IMG/VR virus record: IMGVR_UViG_3300042554_000305
Coordinates: 1-27,220 of that record
DNA from: a virus
Reading direction: 5' to 3' (one strand)
DNA: 27,220 nt
Made by a program: the position numbers and the translations under genes. The notes beneath the pieces are model-generated. The model worked only from the letters and a program-made list of their open reading frames with translations. It was not told the origin of the DNA and did no database searches. Shown here in pieces: positions 9,782-20,166 of the stretch; position 1 is the first letter of the stretch, and each line of letters opens with the position of its first letter.

Positions 9782-11662
9782 CTAGGCGACAGCAAAATCT
9801 GTGTCATCAAGCGGTGAGCCAACGAAACTCGATGTCAGTCCCCATGTGGCTGTGCTAGTTGAAGCATCTGCTGTGCCGTTCCATGCTTGTTCGGTGAGCG
9901 TGTAGCCCGTGTATGGCTCTGAATAAGTACCATCAAAATAAGGCAACAATGTTGAACCCGTTTCAAAGAGTGCGCCGTCAGCATAAGTTGTGCCAGTTAC
10001 CGTGTTAGTAAGTCTTACAATGTTTACTTGGGCAAACGAATACCCAACTGGGCAAGAACCAGTTGCGCTGTACCTAGTCCAAGTATTTGCCGTGATAAGT
10101 GCTGAGGTTCCACCCGTGTCGGTAACTGTTCCGCCAGTAACAGCCGTAGCCCAACGAATGTCAACTCTGTAATCGTCAGCATTATCTGTAAATAAATAAA
10201 CTGATGCCGTATATGTTTGACCTGCTACAACAGGAATACGAAAAGAACCAGCACCAGGGTTATATACCAAAAGAGGTGACGCCAAAGTTGATGGGTAGTC
10301 CCACTTTATAGATGCTGTGCCAAACAAATATTGCAAAGTGCTTCTTACACCTGTTGAACCTGTACCCGAAACAATCCAGCCTGTTGCATTTGTTTCTAAA
10401 CTAGGGTTTGTTGCAAGGTTGGTGCGTGTCGTTGTAGTGGTGTAACCGCCAACAATGAATGGTGACACCAACTGCACCTGACCCAACCCCAAAAACACCT
10501 CATGACGTGACGGGGCGATCTGATGCCGAATGGATTCAACCACCACGTTCTGTCGAACCACCGAAGGCGTACCAACAGCGAACCGTTTCTCCACCGCCAA
10601 AATATCGCCAATCTCTAACGAGGCCATCAACTCCTGCTGAGCCGAAGACAACCCGTTCAACAACACACTTGTTTCATTGAACACCACCTCTGGTGTCTGA
10701 TACCTGCCCAGCAAAGCCACAGCCAAAGCCGAACCAGCAGCATCATTCACCAACGGCAAATTATTCAACGCAAAGTTCTTGATGCCATACTCAGCCTGAG
10801 AAGCCGTACCATTCACCACACTCAACACACTTGAACCTTGCACCTGAACCGAAATACGATTCAACACAGTCTCAGCCCCATACAAATTATTCAACGAACG
10901 AATCGGAACATCCGTCACCGCAGTCCCACCCAACACCGCCACAGCCGTCCCAAACGAAACCTGCACACGAGGATCAAACACCAACATCCCATCACGAGAC
11001 GCATAAAACCGACCATTCTCCGAAACCTGCAAAGCCTGCAAAGCCTCCAACACGTTCGCATTATCCTCATACGCAACAGTCCCAACCGTTGCCAACCCAG
11101 GGTTAATCTCACGCAACGCAGTTGACCAAGCCACCTCATTCCTAGACAAGATTGCGTCAACCCGCTCAGACGTAAGCTGTTGTGATGGGTTGAACCCGAC
11201 AAGGTTTGTCTGGGCTAACTGTGCCAAAGCGTCAACAGCTAAAACCTGTGCAGATGACAAGTTCGGCTCATCGTATTCAATGTTTAAGTCATAGATGTAA
11301 CCCTTGAACATCGCAGCCGTTCCAGCCGAACCACCATAAACCTCAATCGCTCGACGTGGGGCAATACCCAAGTCTCCCTGATACCAAGGTGAGTCTGTGT
11401 TCAACGGGTCAAATGACCTGCCAGATGCACGGTCATCAGCGAGGATGGCAAGCGTTCCGGTGTTGAATGTGTCTAGCTGGTTTGTGCGTCCACGATTGAT
11501 CGTGATGTTCTGAACATACTCAGTAATATCTACGAACTCTGTGGAACCTTCTAGGGTGTCCTCACCATCAAGAAGGCTGGAGTCAAGTTTGAAGATGTTG
11601 GTCTTGAATCCGACATCCAAATTGACCTTAAGGGTTTCCCCCCATACCGCAGTCCTAGCCAT
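9782..11662 (-). CDS. Minor tail protein with C-terminal carbohydrate-binding-like domain
   Basis: 626 residues, directly after the tape measure gene (TAATG overlap), the usual place of distal tail or baseplate hub proteins. Residues 1-390 are beta-rich with features of minor tail proteins (TEYVQNITINRGRTNQLDTFNTGTL, DDRASGRSFDPLNTDSPWY, GYIYDLNIEYD). From about residue 415 (RTNLATNPSLETNATGWI) begins a jelly-roll domain like carbohydrate-binding modules of the CBM4/9 type, with VAGQTYTASVYLF and YADGALFETGSTLLPYFDG. This C-terminal domain may contact host glycans. The hub role is by position and similarity; exact tail location is inferred. Confidence 0.87.
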   Translation of the reverse strand: MARTAVWGETLKVNLDVGFKTNIFKLDSSLLDGEDTLEGSTEFVDITEYVQNITINRGRTNQLDTFNTGTLAILADDRASGRSFDPLNTDSPWYQGDLGIAPRRAIEVYGGSAGTAAMFKGYIYDLNIEYDEPNLSSAQVLAVDALAQLAQTNLVGFNPSQQLTSERVDAILSRNEVAWSTALREINPGLATVGTVAYEDNANVLEALQALQVSENGRFYASRDGMLVFDPRVQVSFGTAVAVLGGTAVTDVPIRSLNNLYGAETVLNRISVQVQGSSVLSVVNGTASQAEYGIKNFALNNLPLVNDAAGSALAVALLGRYQTPEVVFNETSVLLNGLSSAQQELMASLEIGDILAVEKRFAVGTPSVVRQNVVVESIRHQIAPSRHEVFLGLGQVQLVSPFIVGGYTTTTTRTNLATNPSLETNATGWIVSGTGSTGVRSTLQYLFGTASIKWDYPSTLASPLLVYNPGAGSFRIPVVAGQTYTASVYLFTDNADDYRVDIRWATAVTGGTVTDTGGTSALITANTWTRYSATGSCPVGYSFAQVNIVRLTNTVTGTTYADGALFETGSTLLPYFDGTYSEPYTGYTLTEQAWNGTADASTSTATWGLTSSFVGSPLDDTDFAVA

Positions 11663-14241
11663 TACAGAGTTCCGATAGAACCAAACGAGAATTGTCCACC
11701 GGAGAAGAGTAAGTATTCCTTCAAATACTGCTCAATCTCCTGACCAACCTGAATGCCACTAGCACCCAAACCAGCATTGACCTCGATGTTGACATTCCCC
11801 ATACCGCCACCATTAAACAGGCTTCCAGCATTATTAGCCAAAGTACTATCAGGAACAAGGTTCGCCATCGGGTTAGGCATCCCACCCAAAACCTTCGGAT
11901 ACTTCTTAATCAAATCAGCTGTCGCCTGCAACGACTTATTGAACTCATCCTGAGCAGTCTTCGTGTTAGTGACCGCATCTTCCCAAGCCTCATACGCTGA
12001 AATCTGCGCACGAGTCGCATCCTCAACTTCACGCAACGCTTGGTCATAAACAATCGAACCAACAGTTGCACCAAAGATTGCCTCATTCAGCAACCGTTGC
12101 TGATCATTCAATTCCTTAGTGGATTCAATTTGTGAATCAGTAGCATCCGACACCGACAACTTGGACTCAGCCAAACTAATCTCAGCACGACGAATATCCA
12201 TCGGTGAAGAAGCAGGATCTTTACGAACCTCAGCAAGATTCTTCTCAGCATCAGCAACAGAGAACACAGCCTCCTCAACCGCATAAACAGCCCGCTCCTG
12301 AGAACGCTGAGCCTTAGCCAACTCAGCCTGCGCAGCCAACGCCTCCGGTGAACCCACACCAAAACCACGCTCAATCTGAGCCAACCTAGCCTGAGCGTTA
12401 GCCAAGTCCGTATTCGCATCAGTCAACGACGTGAGAGCTTTACCCTCAGCCTTTTGAGACTTATTAAACCTGTCCTTAGCTTTTGTGCTTTTATCCAAAG
12501 CACCTGTATATAGTTCCAACTTTTCTTTAGCCGTCTTAAGAGTCTTAGCAGCACCGGTAGTAGCAGCACCAGTATCGTTGCTTGCTTCTTCGAAAGCGTT
12601 CAATTCTTTAGAACCAACCTTCAAAGTTCCGTTCACTTGATCGAATCTTTCGTTGACGGCCTGTAACTGTGTACTGGTCAAACCAACCTGTGCGCCAAGT
12701 TTCTTAGTATCCAAAGTGATTTTAGGGATATTGGGAACTAGCGGAATCTTGTTGAATACGTCGATGAGAGTGTTGACCACCGACACAGCGATATTGGCTA
12801 ACGCTGTTTTCATCTCATCAAACTTGCCAACAAAACCCTTCACAGCATTAACAGCGATGTTTGCAATACCTTTAACAAAGGCAACAAACAATCCTGGAAT
12901 AGCAGCAACCAAAGCCACAACTGCACCAGCAAGGCCAGCGATCAACTGTCCACCAATCGTCAGAGTCCACTTAATCAACGAACCAGCAAGTCTTGCACCC
13001 ATAGCAAGAACGGCTGGGATTCCGTCTGTGAGTATGAACTTGCCAATAGTGGCAATCATGTCAACCAACTGTGGAGGTAACTGACGTGCAGCTTTACCAA
13101 CAAAACTGGCAAGCGTGTCACCCAAAGACTGAACAGCAGTTACCAACTGTGGCAAGCCCTTCGTATAAATCCATTGGTAGCCAGCCATCAAAAACTTAGT
13201 CAACTCGTTAATGAACATGGGGATTCGAGGCTCGATCCAACCGGTCAAAGAATCAGCAAGTTGACTGATACCGGCAAACAGCATCGGCAAACCTGAAGTC
13301 CCAATCCATTCAACAGCCTGAGTGATGAGTTGCCCCAACGCCTCTAGGACTTTCGGTGCTGCCTCTTTTAAGTTAGTGGCAATAAAATCAAACCCGCCAG
13401 AAACCCCACCCTCCTCTAAAGCGGTGCCAAAGTTTCGGAATGCTGGAACAACTGATTCATTCAAGAACCCGACAGCACTAGCCAAAGCTGGAAGCAACGC
13501 AATTCCAACCGCTGTGGACAAATCCTTAAAATCGTTCTGTAAAGCTTGTAGTTGACCTTCTGGTGTATCTCGAAGACTTTCGTTGAAACCCTCATAGGTA
13601 GAACCCAAGACTGCAACCAAAGCAGCAGCTCGTTCGCTTTCTGTGCCAGATTTGATTGTTTTCTTTGTTGCATCATCAAGGACGAAACCAGTCTTGGTTA
13701 GTGAAGCAAAGTTCCCCTGCAACGCTTGGGCTAGTCCGTTGGTGGATGATTTGAAATCGTCCGCTGTGGCACTAGCACCTTTTTCTGCTGTTACATAATC
13801 AAGAATTGCGGGGGTCAGCGTTTTGATTGTGTCAACTGAAAGGTCAAAGGTTGCTAACTGTGCCTGGACAACCGAGGTAGTACCTGCCGAAACAACACCA
13901 AGATTCTGTAACGCTTTTGCTTGTTCGTTTAGAGAATCAATTTGCTCATCTGATGCACCTGTGGTGGTTTGTAAGATTTGCCTAAGCCTGTTTTGCTCTG
14001 CCTCTGATTCGATAGCAGCCTCAACCGATTTATATAAGGCAGCACTAACAGCGGCGAACGCTGCGGTTCCTGCGACAGCAACCGCTTTGAAAGACGGCAT
14101 GACGCTCTTGAACTTTGAACCAAGGTTTGTGTCAACCTGTTTCCCTAAAGTGCCTAGGTCATCACCGACTTTTTTGATGCCTTTAGTGGCAGCAAGCGTA
14201 TCGGAAATAAACTTAACAACGAACGTCCGCTCACCAGCCAT
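11662..14241 (-). CDS. Tape measure protein
   Basis: 859 residues, the longest gene of the window. It has a helical N-terminus, a central hydrophobic zone at about 390-470 (TLTIGGQLIAGLAGAVVALVAA and neighbours) and long Ala/Glu/Lys-rich coiled coils around 565-790 (KAEGKALTSLTDANTDLANA, AQAELAKAQRSQERAV). These are features of the protein that sets siphovirus tail length and sits in the tail tube. By the usual rule of about 1.5 angstrom per residue the tail would be near 130 nm (inference). I see no embedded peptidase or lysozyme motif. Position after the chaperones and before the minor tail protein agrees. Confidence 0.93.
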   Translation of the reverse strand: MAGERTFVVKFISDTLAATKGIKKVGDDLGTLGKQVDTNLGSKFKSVMPSFKAVAVAGTAAFAAVSAALYKSVEAAIESEAEQNRLRQILQTTTGASDEQIDSLNEQAKALQNLGVVSAGTTSVVQAQLATFDLSVDTIKTLTPAILDYVTAEKGASATADDFKSSTNGLAQALQGNFASLTKTGFVLDDATKKTIKSGTESERAAALVAVLGSTYEGFNESLRDTPEGQLQALQNDFKDLSTAVGIALLPALASAVGFLNESVVPAFRNFGTALEEGGVSGGFDFIATNLKEAAPKVLEALGQLITQAVEWIGTSGLPMLFAGISQLADSLTGWIEPRIPMFINELTKFLMAGYQWIYTKGLPQLVTAVQSLGDTLASFVGKAARQLPPQLVDMIATIGKFILTDGIPAVLAMGARLAGSLIKWTLTIGGQLIAGLAGAVVALVAAIPGLFVAFVKGIANIAVNAVKGFVGKFDEMKTALANIAVSVVNTLIDVFNKIPLVPNIPKITLDTKKLGAQVGLTSTQLQAVNERFDQVNGTLKVGSKELNAFEEASNDTGAATTGAAKTLKTAKEKLELYTGALDKSTKAKDRFNKSQKAEGKALTSLTDANTDLANAQARLAQIERGFGVGSPEALAAQAELAKAQRSQERAVYAVEEAVFSVADAEKNLAEVRKDPASSPMDIRRAEISLAESKLSVSDATDSQIESTKELNDQQRLLNEAIFGATVGSIVYDQALREVEDATRAQISAYEAWEDAVTNTKTAQDEFNKSLQATADLIKKYPKVLGGMPNPMANLVPDSTLANNAGSLFNGGGMGNVNIEVNAGLGASGIQVGQEIEQYLKEYLLFSGGQFSFGSIGTL

Positions 14242-14250
14242 GCGACGATT

Positions 14251-14961
14251 CTACTCAATAACAGACAGCCCATTCCGCAAAGCAACAAACTCGTCAAGCA
14301 TCGCAGAATACAAAGCCTTCTCAGACAGGCCATCCCAACGAGAAATATCTACAGGCTCATTCCACCAAGCCTCAGACAATATCTCTGCACCAGCACGAGG
14401 CGCACGAGGCTGACGCACCTGCTTTGATCGAGGCGACACAGGGTTGATGACAGGTTCAACATCCAACCTGAACGACGAATCCAACAACACACCATGACCC
14501 TCATGGAACTCAAACGGCTGATTCGGTGCATGCTGTGGCAGATAGAAAATACGAGCAGGGTCTTTGGTTGCCTCGTCACCACGCAGGTTGATTCGCTCAT
14601 GCAACTCCTGCCACACCACCCGCCACAAAGACGCAGGCACCTTCTCCGCTAACGGCAACACCAAGTGATAGTGAGGGTCATCCAACCGATGCGAATAAGT
14701 CGAATACGCAAACCACTCCAACCCATCCAACCGCGCCTCATCAAACGCTTCACCGTCCATGTCCACCACAAGGGCTTCCACAGACCTGACGTTACGGTTA
14801 CCACGAGTCGTACCCTGGTCATACTCAACCGGAGACCACAACGCACCCGCAGCCTTGACAGCATTCTCCTCATGGAACGACAACAGCTCCTTGAGTTGCT
14901 CCCAAGACGAAGCGAACCGCTTCGGATAAATAGACTTCACATCCTTAAACAGAACTGCCAT
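14251..14961 (-). CDS. Archaeo-eukaryotic primase (AEP/PrimPol)-like protein
   Basis: 236 residues with its own strong ribosome binding site (AGGAGGGG before the ATG). SVEALVVDMDGEAF supplies a D-x-D metal pair, DPHYHLVLPLAEKV a conserved His with the LVLPL strand, and ATKDPARIFYLPQHAP the third motif seen in RepB-like and bifunctional primase-polymerase proteins. The upstream YSTYSHR stretch also fits. The C-terminal 70 residues are basic then helical and carry no helicase motifs. It is complete as a single-domain AEP but sits between the gp10-like tail gene and the tape measure, where structural genes are expected. It could prime DNA synthesis or be a repurposed nucleotidyltransferase. Confidence 0.78.
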   Translation of the reverse strand: MAVLFKDVKSIYPKRFASSWEQLKELLSFHEENAVKAAGALWSPVEYDQGTTRGNRNVRSVEALVVDMDGEAFDEARLDGLEWFAYSTYSHRLDDPHYHLVLPLAEKVPASLWRVVWQELHERINLRGDEATKDPARIFYLPQHAPNQPFEFHEGHGVLLDSSFRLDVEPVINPVSPRSKQVRQPRAPRAGAEILSEAWWNEPVDISRWDGLSEKALYSAMLDEFVALRNGLSVIE

Positions 14962-15532: not shown

Positions 15533-15942
15533 CTACCTGTTCAGATGAATTGCTCTCCAACGCAAATAAGCGAACATCGTGAAAATCATTCGAGGTGATT
15601 CTGTCAGCAAAATTGAAGGGGCGATACCTGTCTCAACAGACAGGTACGCAATCATCCAATGGGCTGACTGATCTCCAAAGGGACGATCACAGCTTGGTCA
15701 GCATCACCAATCGATAAAGACTCAACGTCGTTAATCCAAGAATCAAAATCCAAGCCCGTCTTCTTCTGACGATATTCAGAATGCCAACCAATAAAAGCCA
15801 AGTCTGTAAGCGTTAGTTCTGCTTCAAACTTTGCGACACTTCGGTTGAACTTGTTTTCAAAAGCGATGAAGTCAGGAAACGCAGCAACAACCGTGCGAGT
15901 CTTCTGATCCAACGCCGATGTGACCTCTAGTGCTATCTTCAT
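15533..15942 (-). CDS. Tail assembly chaperone G-T fusion made by -1 frameshift
   Basis: Predicted 136-residue product: residues 1-89 from the G frame, then 47 residues in the -1 frame beginning GDQSAHWMIAYLSVETG and ending at a TAG (15533-15535). The extension contains SILLTESPRMIFTMFAYLRWR, which matches the usual T-domain pattern of actinophage chaperones (a short helix, a P-S-x-L-L turn and a D/S-P-R-M helix). The slip site is C_CCT_TTG at 15676-15682, in frame with G. G and G-T bind the tape measure protein and tail tube subunits during tail assembly, and their ratio is set by slippage. The extension has no start of its own, so frameshifting is the only sensible way to express it. Confidence 0.88.
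15631..15659 (-). promoter_or_regulatory. Frameshift-stimulating hairpin candidate
   Basis: On the transcribed strand TACCTGTCT and AGACAGGTA pair perfectly over nine bases around a GTTG loop, and GCG/CGC extends the stem by three pairs past one bulged base. It begins 16 bases after the slippery heptamer and covers the stop codon of the G frame. The distance is longer than the 5-9 bases usual for stimulators, so its part in slippage is inferred. Confidence 0.6.
15652..15942 (-). CDS. Tail assembly chaperone G (unshifted product)
   Basis: 96 residues. The sequence LTDLAFIGWHSEYRQKKTG (45-63) followed by DFDSWINDVESLSIGD is the characteristic core of the small chaperone encoded between major tail and tape measure genes in actinophages. 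The start ATG has GGAGG five bases before it. In the last codons the ribosome meets the C_CCT_TTG slip site; ribosomes that do not slip end at the TGA after SQPIG. It acts in the cytoplasm to hold the tape measure protein during tube polymerisation and is absent from virions. Confidence 0.9.
   Translation of the reverse strand: MKIALEVTSALDQKTRTVVAAFPDFIAFENKFNRSVAKFEAELTLTDLAFIGWHSEYRQKKTGLDFDSWINDVESLSIGDADQAVIVPLEISQPIG
15676..15682 (-). promoter_or_regulatory. Slippery heptamer C_CCT_TTG
   Basis: Codons GTC-CCT-TTG in the chaperone G frame give CCCTTTG, a perfect X_XXY_YYZ site (X=C, Y=T, Z=G). After slipping, Pro reads CCC and Leu pairs on TTT, and reading resumes at GGA-GAT-CAG into an open extension of 47 codons. 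Confidence 0.87.
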
Positions 15943-15978: not shown

Positions 15979-16404
15979 TTATGCTCCAGAACCAGTCTTG
16001 GTTACGTTGCCGTCAATAGGGTAAGTGATTGACGCTGTGGCGATGTCGCCTACAGCACCATTCACGCTTTGCCAAGTTAGGGGCAGAACGTTAAACGCAT
16101 ATTGCGGATTGGTGCTTGAAGCGGAAGCAGTTCCGTTTGGCTTAACCGTCATCGCTACAGCAGTACCCGCAGCCCAAGCGTCATAGAACAACTTCTCAAT
16201 CGTTGGGTAATCCTGATGCAACTCAAGAGTGATCGAGTTGTCTGCAAGACCTGCGATACGAGTAACCGCACCACCCGAACCGAAACTAGTTGTAGCTACT
16301 TCAGCCTTGGTCAAATCCAATGTAATTGAAGCTACATAATTTGAAATATCGGTGTTAGCTGTGCCGAAGGTGACCGCTACGTTTGTGAGAACTTGCTTTG
16401 CCAT
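15979..16404 (-). CDS. Major tail (tube) protein
   Basis: 141 residues, beta-rich: VLTNVAVTFGTANTDIS, YVASITLDLTKAEVATTSFG, SITLELHQDYPTIEKLFYDAW, AVAMTVKPNG and the final GDIATASITYPIDGNV. This is the pattern of compact tail-tube proteins of actinophages, and it lies directly before the chaperone G gene as expected. SSTNPQYAFNVLPL includes the conserved proline-rich loop. The start has GGCAGGAG about nine bases upstream with a small GNRA hairpin abutting it, and a possible promoter stands in the gap before it, in keeping with a highly expressed gene. Confidence 0.88.
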   Translation of the reverse strand: MAKQVLTNVAVTFGTANTDISNYVASITLDLTKAEVATTSFGSGGAVTRIAGLADNSITLELHQDYPTIEKLFYDAWAAGTAVAMTVKPNGTASASSTNPQYAFNVLPLTWQSVNGAVGDIATASITYPIDGNVTKTGSGA

Positions 16405-17522: not shown

Positions 17523-18230
17523 CTAGTTGATTGACGCAGCACCACGATATGGAACACCCTCAAGGGAATAGTTCACGAACGGGTTCAACGAATACACCTG
17601 ACATGAATACACATCCCACAGACGTTGCTTCATCGCTCGAAGGTGCATCTCATATAAAGCAAAATGCAAATCCCCTGGCACATACCCATCCACCCTGTCA
17701 CGACCACCCAGCGAACCACAGTCAGCCCCAACCAACACAATGAACTTCGCTCCCATGTGCGCTGCAAGGTGCATCGCCCCATGAATGCTTGATGAGCCGA
17801 TAGTCAACTGACCAGACAACACAGGCCAATCTTTTCCATGCGGGTCAAAGGATGTGCCTGGTCTGCCGGTACGAGTACCGAACGTGGTGATGTTCGGCAT
17901 AAACCCACCGAACGACCCATCAGTTCCATGCTCTCGCTCAGGGGTAAAGACACCGATACAGTCCTCACGCACAGCCTCACTCTTAGCGTCCTCGTGGTAA
18001 TGACTGAAACAGTAGTAACCCTTCAACCCGAATACTGAGCCAACGAAGTTGACTGCGATGGTCAGCTTGTCGTCAAAGAAGTCTGGTGTCAGATAGTCAA
18101 GTGTTGCACCTGAGCCAAGAACATAGATGGTCTCGCCTTCATGCAAGTTGTAGTAATCGTCTAACGGGTCACGCTGTGTGTCTAAATGATCGAAGTCACG
18201 ATCAAGCATGTGGTCATAATTTAATCCCAT
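17523..18230 (-). CDS. DUF115/MptE-like Rossmann-fold protein
   Basis: 235 residues from the ATG at 18230, which overlaps the stop of the upstream glycosyltransferase; an in-frame reading 20 residues longer is possible. ETIYVLGSGATLDYL (33-47) resembles the glycine-rich loop of DUF115 proteins, LTIAVNFVG the following strand, and GYYCFSHYHED the substrate loop. VLVGADCGSLGG (166-176) matches the conserved G-[AT]-D motif. DUF115 proteins (flagellin Maf-like) work in surface glycosylation, transferring or handling sugars such as sialic or pseudaminic acid relatives. Next to two glycosyltransferases that reading is natural here, though the donor sugar cannot be told. Confidence 0.78.
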   Translation of the reverse strand: MGLNYDHMLDRDFDHLDTQRDPLDDYYNLHEGETIYVLGSGATLDYLTPDFFDDKLTIAVNFVGSVFGLKGYYCFSHYHEDAKSEAVREDCIGVFTPEREHGTDGSFGGFMPNITTFGTRTGRPGTSFDPHGKDWPVLSGQLTIGSSSIHGAMHLAAHMGAKFIVLVGADCGSLGGRDRVDGYVPGDLHFALYEMHLRAMKQRLWDVYSCQVYSLNPFVNYSLEGVPYRGAASIN

Positions 18231-18886
18231 CCCAAATCCCTTCTTCGTGTTAAATCCCAATGACCCGCATCGGGAAGACCTGATTGCCAACGCATCGCAT
18301 GAAGCGCACCATTGGCAGAAAAACTTTTCGCATTCTTTTCTTGTAACTCTGGTGCTGATAAAAGCGTAGACGAATTGTCGTGAACTATCCCAGCGTCAGA
18401 AGTCCAGAATTGCACGTTGAGCCGTTGCGCACGTTCCTGAAAATCGTTGTCCTCAAAGTAGGCGGGAACATAACATTCCGAAAACAATCCAACCTTGGCA
18501 ATCACTTCAGACCCAATCCATGCACAAGACCAACCAGGCTGAGCCTGAGTCAATGTCACCGAATCAGGTTTGCAATCGTTATAGAAGACTTCTAACTGTC
18601 CAGGCTCGAAGAACGCATCAGAGTTCAAGATGATCCAACCGTCAGCGTGAGGCGTTGATTTGATACCGAGGTTCCATGATGGCGCGACACCGAGGTTCGT
18701 TGGCATAGACCAGACGTGATAGTTCTTGACATCGCGACGGTCAATGACCCAAGGGTAATCGTGCAACGTGGACTGACCACCATTGTCGATGACGATGAGT
18801 GTCTCCACCGGATAGTCGATGGACTGCAAGCAGCGTTCTAGTAGGTCATACCTGTTTAGGACGGGGACGATGATGACTGGCACCAT
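18221..18886 (-). CDS. GT-A glycosyltransferase (family 2-like)
   Basis: 221 residues from the ATG at 18886, with AAGGAG eight bases upstream, inside the end of the preceding gene; the open frame reaches 18916 but has no better site. The nucleotide-sugar half has VIIVPVLNRYDLLERCL, LIVIDNGG (Asp34) and TNLGVAPSWNLG, and the metal motif ILNSDAFFEPG (NSD, 88-90). The acceptor half has YFEDNDFQER (145-152), the catalytic-base region, and a His at 169. This is a complete inverting GT2-like enzyme without membrane segments. It probably adds sugar to a virion or host acceptor together with its two neighbours. Confidence 0.92.
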   Translation of the reverse strand: MVPVIIVPVLNRYDLLERCLQSIDYPVETLIVIDNGGQSTLHDYPWVIDRRDVKNYHVWSMPTNLGVAPSWNLGIKSTPHADGWIILNSDAFFEPGQLEVFYNDCKPDSVTLTQAQPGWSCAWIGSEVIAKVGLFSECYVPAYFEDNDFQERAQRLNVQFWTSDAGIVHDNSSTLLSAPELQEKNAKSFSANGALHAMRWQSGLPDAGHWDLTRRRDLGWD

Positions 18887-20166
18887 TCCGACAACTCCTT
18901 CATGATTGGCTTCCAATGGCTCTCAAATACGGCATCAGCTTCATATTGGCTGGCAAAGGCCACAGCCTCGTCTGACACGCCTCTAGGGGCTTCGTAGGCC
19001 TCAATCAGAGCCTCCACGATGGATGGCACCTGTGGGGTGCAGAACCACGACTTCTGATGGCTATCCCAGAACGGCTGGATTGCCACAGCTGACCCAACCC
19101 CAACCAACTCAGGCTGAGCGGTGTAGTCAGAAACGATGACCCGTGTACCGCAAGCCTGAGCCTCGATAACAGGGATACCGAAACCTTCACCCATCGAGCA
19201 GGCCAACAGCACATCCGAAGCGGTGTACAACGCTGCTAACGCTTGCTGAGGGAAACCAGTCCGATACGCATACGGGTCAACAATCTTGTATTGCTCAGGC
19301 TTCACACCACACGCATCGAGCAGATGCACAAGGTTGATACCACCCATCGCACCATCACGTTCTGTGTGCAGATACAGCAAAGCATCAGGACGGTCTTGAG
19401 CAAAGATTGCGAACGCCAGAATGTTTTCACCGAAAGATTTGCGTGAAGGGTTCTGACCTTTGTTCGCAGCGTTCATCATCACAACAAACCTGTCCTCATC
19501 CACCTCCATCAACTGTCTGCCGGTGAACTCGCCACGAGTATTCGACAACTTGTGTGTAGGAACAAACACCTTCTCAAAAGCATGAGGCGCATACATCGCA
19601 TCAACACCCGCATTCTGCAACATGTCCAAACCAAACTTAGACATCGCAATCGGTTTCACATTCGGACGCTTACACCAAGCAACCACCTCTGGTGGGCAAG
19701 GCGCATGGTCAATCGGAACCCACGAAGCGATATTAGGAACCTGCTCCAACGACGGGGACTTCAAAACCCACACATCAAACAACGTCATCAACATCGCAGG
19801 AATCTCACGATTACCATTCGCCCAATCCATCCAATGCGCAACCAGCACATCATCAGAATATGGGGACATCCCTCGTGGATAAAGTTTTATGCCATTCCAC
19901 ATCGAAGCCATACCCTCAATGCCGTACATCGCATGGATTGCTACTTCGTGTTTTTTGATGAGTCTTTGGACGACTTGCGCTGTCTGGGTTCCGTACCCTG
20001 TTGGGGCGAACGGGGCGTTCGAGTACCAGAGGATTCGTAACGATTCGGCATTGGTAAATCTGCCAGCTCTGGCAAGTGCGCTATTCCCCTGTGGAGCAAC
20101 AACTCCGCTTCCAGGTCTGGTAACTCGACCGGAGTGTTTTTTATTATTACGAGCATTACCCACCAT
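18856..20166 (-). CDS. GT-B glycosyltransferase (family 4-like)
   Basis: 436 residues. The first 40 are basic and low complexity, an unusual extension. RILWYSNAPFAPTGYGTQTA (44-63) is the N-terminal glycine loop of retaining GT4 enzymes, SWVPIDHAP (149-156) and AMSKFGLDML the inner domain, and MGEGFGIPVIEAQACG (325-340) carries the E-x7-E donor-binding motif (Glu327, Glu335). The architecture is complete and cytosolic. It is the first gene after the capsid terminator and starts with AAGGAG before the ATG; it overlaps the GT2 gene by 31 bases, so the two enzymes are coupled. Substrate and acceptor unknown. Confidence 0.93.
   Translation of the reverse strand: MVGNARNNKKHSGRVTRPGSGVVAPQGNSALARAGRFTNAESLRILWYSNAPFAPTGYGTQTAQVVQRLIKKHEVAIHAMYGIEGMASMWNGIKLYPRGMSPYSDDVLVAHWMDWANGNREIPAMLMTLFDVWVLKSPSLEQVPNIASWVPIDHAPCPPEVVAWCKRPNVKPIAMSKFGLDMLQNAGVDAMYAPHAFEKVFVPTHKLSNTRGEFTGRQLMEVDEDRFVVMMNAANKGQNPSRKSFGENILAFAIFAQDRPDALLYLHTERDGAMGGINLVHLLDACGVKPEQYKIVDPYAYRTGFPQQALAALYTASDVLLACSMGEGFGIPVIEAQACGTRVIVSDYTAQPELVGVGSAVAIQPFWDSHQKSWFCTPQVPSIVEALIEAYEAPRGVSDEAVAFASQYEADAVFESHWKPIMKELSEWCQSSSSPS

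Follow-up and report, generated by a model that had tools for sequence, protein, structure and literature searches.

A -1 frameshift in the gene of a tail-building helper protein is a well-known feature of tailed phages. In phage lambda, the binding partner of G is the tape measure protein and that of T the major tail protein, and the fusion GT is the minority product (PMC5009743). The lambda G/GT gene is a small open reading frame (ORF) between the major tail protein and tape measure genes, with an X_XXY_YYZ heptamer near the ORF end and a C-terminal extension in the -1 frame. The locus studied here resembles lambda in each of these points of architecture. Among named phages, our virus is nearest to Pontimonas phage phiPsal1, or to Rhodococcus phages when the major tail protein is compared, which fits the guess of the initial annotation that it is an actinophage. 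In the literature on CCCUUUG frameshift sites and on freshwater phages with tail assembly chaperones, we found no description of this G/GT family. A scan of GTDB genomes with an alignment of G returned no relative and therefore gave no prophage or host link.

The minus strand of the window, an IMG/VR virus record of 27,220 bases, carries a structural module resembling that of siphoviruses, and all features described below lie on this strand. The module contains genes for the terminase, portal, protease, major capsid protein, head-tail adaptor, tail terminator, major tail protein and tape measure protein. The G ORF (15652–15942), which encodes a putative tail assembly chaperone, adjoins the major tail protein gene (15979–16404; phrog_4574, E 2.6e-15) directly downstream. 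The tape measure gene (11662–14241; phrog_1272, E 4.8e-7) lies further on, separated from GT by two ORFs. We notice a primase/helicase-like ORF (14251–14961; phrog_9765, E 3e-15) between the chaperone and tape measure genes, which is present in 78 of the 80 clade loci and is oddly located for a replication gene. Glycosyltransferase-like ORFs (17523–20166) are situated between the major capsid and head-tail adaptor genes, and the corresponding location of phiPsal1 holds glycosyltransferases and a methyltransferase.

On the basis of gene order, architecture and the frameshift, rather than homology, G and GT would act as tail assembly chaperones. Searching Pfam, NCBIfam and PDB, by sequence or fold, gave no named chaperone match to G or GT. 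The nearest library family is phrog_6889 ('unknown function'), which the G of the window matches weakly (E 0.07) and the GT of phiPsal1 more clearly (E 5e-6); this PHROG has no function assigned and matches the G part only, so that the T extension falls outside it. G was modelled with AlphaFold (mean pLDDT 85.6); the model matched uncharacterised phage proteins in BFVD (E < 0.001), and its comparison with the PDB gave no significant match. As these searches gave no named family for the product, one may argue that the frameshift is real and that it yields something other than a tail assembly chaperone. We consider this unlikely, since the position (major tail protein before, tape measure after), the size and the presumed minority C-terminal extension all fit the G/GT pattern.

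The ORF listing bears out G at 15942–15652 with 96 aa. Codons 87–89 of G read GTC CCT TTG, and the heptamer CCCTTTG (15682–15676) is thus in register as C_CCT_TTG. Seven sense codons lie between the heptamer and the zero-frame TGA (15654–15652). When base 15676 is read twice, translation passes into a -1 frame extension, the T domain (15533–15676), of 47 codons plus a stop (15535–15533). The predicted fusion GT has 136 aa, and its translation places the junction at Leu89-Gly90. The initial annotation had described the ORF, the heptamer, the extension and the junction correctly. It had also stated that the -1 frame has no start codon, which is not the case: an ATG is present at 15655–15653, overlapping the zero-frame TGA as ATGA, and a 40-aa ORF is listed from it.

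In-register X_XXY_YYZ motifs are not rare in this DNA, with 18 occurrences among 7505 codons in the main ORFs of the window (about 1 per 400 codons). The motif alone therefore proves little, and the evidence has to come from conservation. Another such heptamer, T_TTG_GGA (18236–18230), is in register at the end of the ORF at 18221–18916 and opens a long -1 frame. We rejected it as a second frameshift site, because relatives do not conserve the motif and an ATG is available to start the downstream ORF. It is useful as a negative control.

For the near clade, we fetched 80 viral relatives of G. CCCTTTG stands in register in all 80, and all 80 have the 47-codon -1 extension. Scanning again with the alignment of G mostly recovered the same loci. 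We also scanned DNA with the flanks of the slip site, leaving the seven heptamer positions free, and obtained 115 readable matches that partly overlap the 80 relatives. CCCTTTG was found in 115 of 115, and the 47-codon extension in every one. Neither the 80 relatives nor this heptamer-blind scan contains a case in which G is kept and the heptamer is lost or the -1 frame closed, the outcome that the initial annotation had named as contrary to its reading. Two bases of the heptamer, the last of GTC and the last of CCT, could change silently in frame 0 and never do, although G on average varies strongly at its silent sites (pS ~0.6). Immediately upstream, GTGATCGT (15690–15683) is nearly invariant in the near clade, silent sites included, hinting at a possible upstream RNA element.

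These results already refute the explanation that a chance heptamer happens to lie beside a pseudogene remnant or a sequencing frameshift. Although the frequency of in-register heptamers in the window would make a chance occurrence conceivable, the same frame relation recurs across many metagenomes, in contigs independent of each other, and in the deposited records of two phages. Besides, the T region is under purifying selection, as described below, and the control heptamer T_TTG_GGA lacks such conservation in relatives. We regard the probability of this explanation as negligible.

We analysed selection in 58 distinct near-clade sequences. Between the heptamer and the ATG, the variable sites are 15671 (T/C), 15670 (C/A), 15662 (C/A/G) and 15659 (T/C). 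Changes at 15671, 15662 and 15659 alter the amino acid in frame 0 and are silent in the -1 frame. In the overlap, pN/pS is 0.03 in the -1 frame versus 2.2 in frame 0. Past the G stop, the -1 frame has a pN/pS of 0.23, and the two remaining frames have 1.65 and 3.07. Purifying selection acts on the -1 frame only, from the heptamer onwards.

The selection upstream of the ATG bears on a different reading of the locus, in which T is a separate small protein produced by termination-reinitiation at the ATGA, and the heptamer is incidental. The ATGA overlap itself, found in the window and in most near-clade members, is what reinitiation would use. On the other hand, a -1 frame that is selected upstream of the ATG is a -1 frame that is translated there, and this speaks against T being made mainly by independent initiation. 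Several relatives carry GTA instead of ATG (L053 and 14 of the 115 DNA-scan matches) and keep the remaining extension intact. Nearly all distant relatives are without a junction ATG, and the heptamer is invariant. We consider reinitiation as the source of T very unlikely, while a minor amount of free T may be made besides the fusion in the phages that bear the ATG.

Beyond the near clade, scanning IMG/VR with an alignment of T matched at least 592 loci with T homologues. Among the best 80 of these at least 592 loci, T lies in the -1 frame behind A_AAA_AAA (60 loci) or C_CCA_AAA (19 loci), that is, in 79 of 80, and a few of the 80 contigs are cut within G. The one exception, L234, has one base fewer after its A7 run than the related L239, which puts T in the +1 frame. 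By its sequence it looks like a one-base deletion of L239, either an assembly error or a real mutant. In phiPsal1 and five related contigs, TAA or TAG comes after a terminal A_AAA_AAA in the G homologue; the T homologue is in the -1 frame with no ATG at the junction. EBPR siphovirus 6 gp13, although very distant by sequence, has C_CCT_TTG, followed by the T domain in the -1 frame. The slip site is exchanged among these relatives, and the frame relation between G and T is kept.

Runs of seven to eight A in some relatives raise the question of whether the fusion arises by transcriptional, not ribosomal, slippage. RNA polymerase slippage usually needs long homopolymer runs. The site in the window is CCCTTTG, with homopolymers of at most 3, and C_CCA_AAA sites are also found among the relatives, both of which speak against a transcriptional origin. 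We hold it to be highly improbable. Taken together, the conserved heptamer, the selection on the -1 frame and the slip-site exchange strongly support the programmed -1 frameshift proposed by the initial annotation, and this support is about as good as sequence alone can give.

The RNA downstream of the heptamer requires a different description from the one first given. A hairpin of 9 bp, extendable to 12 bp, had been placed 16 bases downstream, an unusual distance for a stimulator, and had been described as covering the zero-frame stop. By our measurement, the 9-bp stem (15646–15638/15633–15625) begins 29 nt after the heptamer and the 12-bp version (from 15649) 26 nt after it, and neither stem covers the stop. 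The hairpin forms the end of a larger predicted fold, in which GTCAGC (15668–15663) pairs with GCTGAC (15608–15603), and ATTGGA pairs with TTCAAT. The full predicted stem-loop extends over 15603–15668, with an outer stem at 15668–15663/15608–15603 and an inner 12-bp stem at 15649–15638/15633–15621 (MFE -31.6 kcal/mol, z -5.0). It covers the zero-frame stop and starts 7 nt after the heptamer, so that a stable predicted structure lies 5–9 nt after the slip site and the distance is no longer unusual. The core of the initial annotation, namely the slip site and the extension, thus stands, and its details on the start codon and the hairpin distance do not.

Along the gene, the fold signal peaks around and just past the heptamer. 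In the near clade, each of the 32 different downstream sequences folds with z < -2 (mean -3.75) and similar spacing, versus means of -0.99 for the A_AAA_AAA relatives and -1.41 for the C_CCA_AAA relatives; the sequences in this comparison are kin, and p values should not be taken at face value. In the clade alignment, 91% of the cells pair in the stem-loop, versus 32–50% for slid versions of it. Compensatory changes in the stem-loop are no commoner in the near-clade alignment than in shuffles, and the inner stem is lost in register in L047, L053 and L075. We consider the modelled downstream stem-loop plausible, not proven. We rejected a further small hairpin, predicted upstream over the slip site; the frequent T-to-C change at 15671 removes one of its pairs.

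We are highly confident, from the comparative sequence data, that the locus encodes a G/GT tail assembly chaperone pair through a -1 slip on C_CCT_TTG, with the stem-loop probably acting as a stimulator. We infer the slippage and its efficiency as follows. Most ribosomes would read the 96-aa G. A minority would slip back by one base on C_CCT_TTG, with tRNA-Pro re-pairing on CCC and tRNA-Leu on UUU, and would continue for 47 codons to give the 136-aa GT. The stem-loop, which begins 7 nt after the heptamer, is the probable stimulator of the slip. The lambda system suggests that G may bind the tape measure protein and that T may recruit the major tail protein.

We speculate, with considerable doubt, that phages within this one GT family trade the strength of the slip site against RNA stimulators, holding the G:GT ratio by different signals. 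The A_AAA_AAA clades would then combine a stop right after the heptamer with little downstream structure, and the C_CCT_TTG clade would combine a presumably weaker site with a strong stem-loop 7 nt downstream. The slip-site swaps between clades provide a natural series for relating slip site, stop-codon position and RNA structure to the protein ratio. The analysis also corrects the gene model of an abundant, uncharacterised protein family of aquatic, including freshwater, phages, counting at least 592 IMG/VR loci, and indicates what its function is likely to be.

Among described phages, gene 016 of phiPsal1 (MG835450, 'hypothetical protein') is like the window in encoding a G homologue with 43% identity and a T homologue in the -1 frame. 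It differs in that A_AAA_AAA stands directly before the stop, in the missing junction ATG and in having little downstream structure. Gp13 of EBPR siphovirus 6 (JF412301, 'hypothetical protein') shares the in-register C_CCT_TTG, followed by GPDSANWRIASLAVDTGIAPSLLMAESERMLFTL in the -1 frame. Unlike the window, it is distant and GC-rich, with no junction ATG and no clear downstream structure (z -0.4). Neither deposited record annotates the extension as belonging to the gene. Compared with lambda, whose slip site is G_GGA_AAG, the window has C_CCT_TTG, two further genes precede its tape measure gene, and there is no detectable sequence relation. The kind of system, a -1 frameshift of the lambda G/GT type, is known; the novelty lies in the family, in the correction of its gene model and in the fact that its members exchange slip sites.
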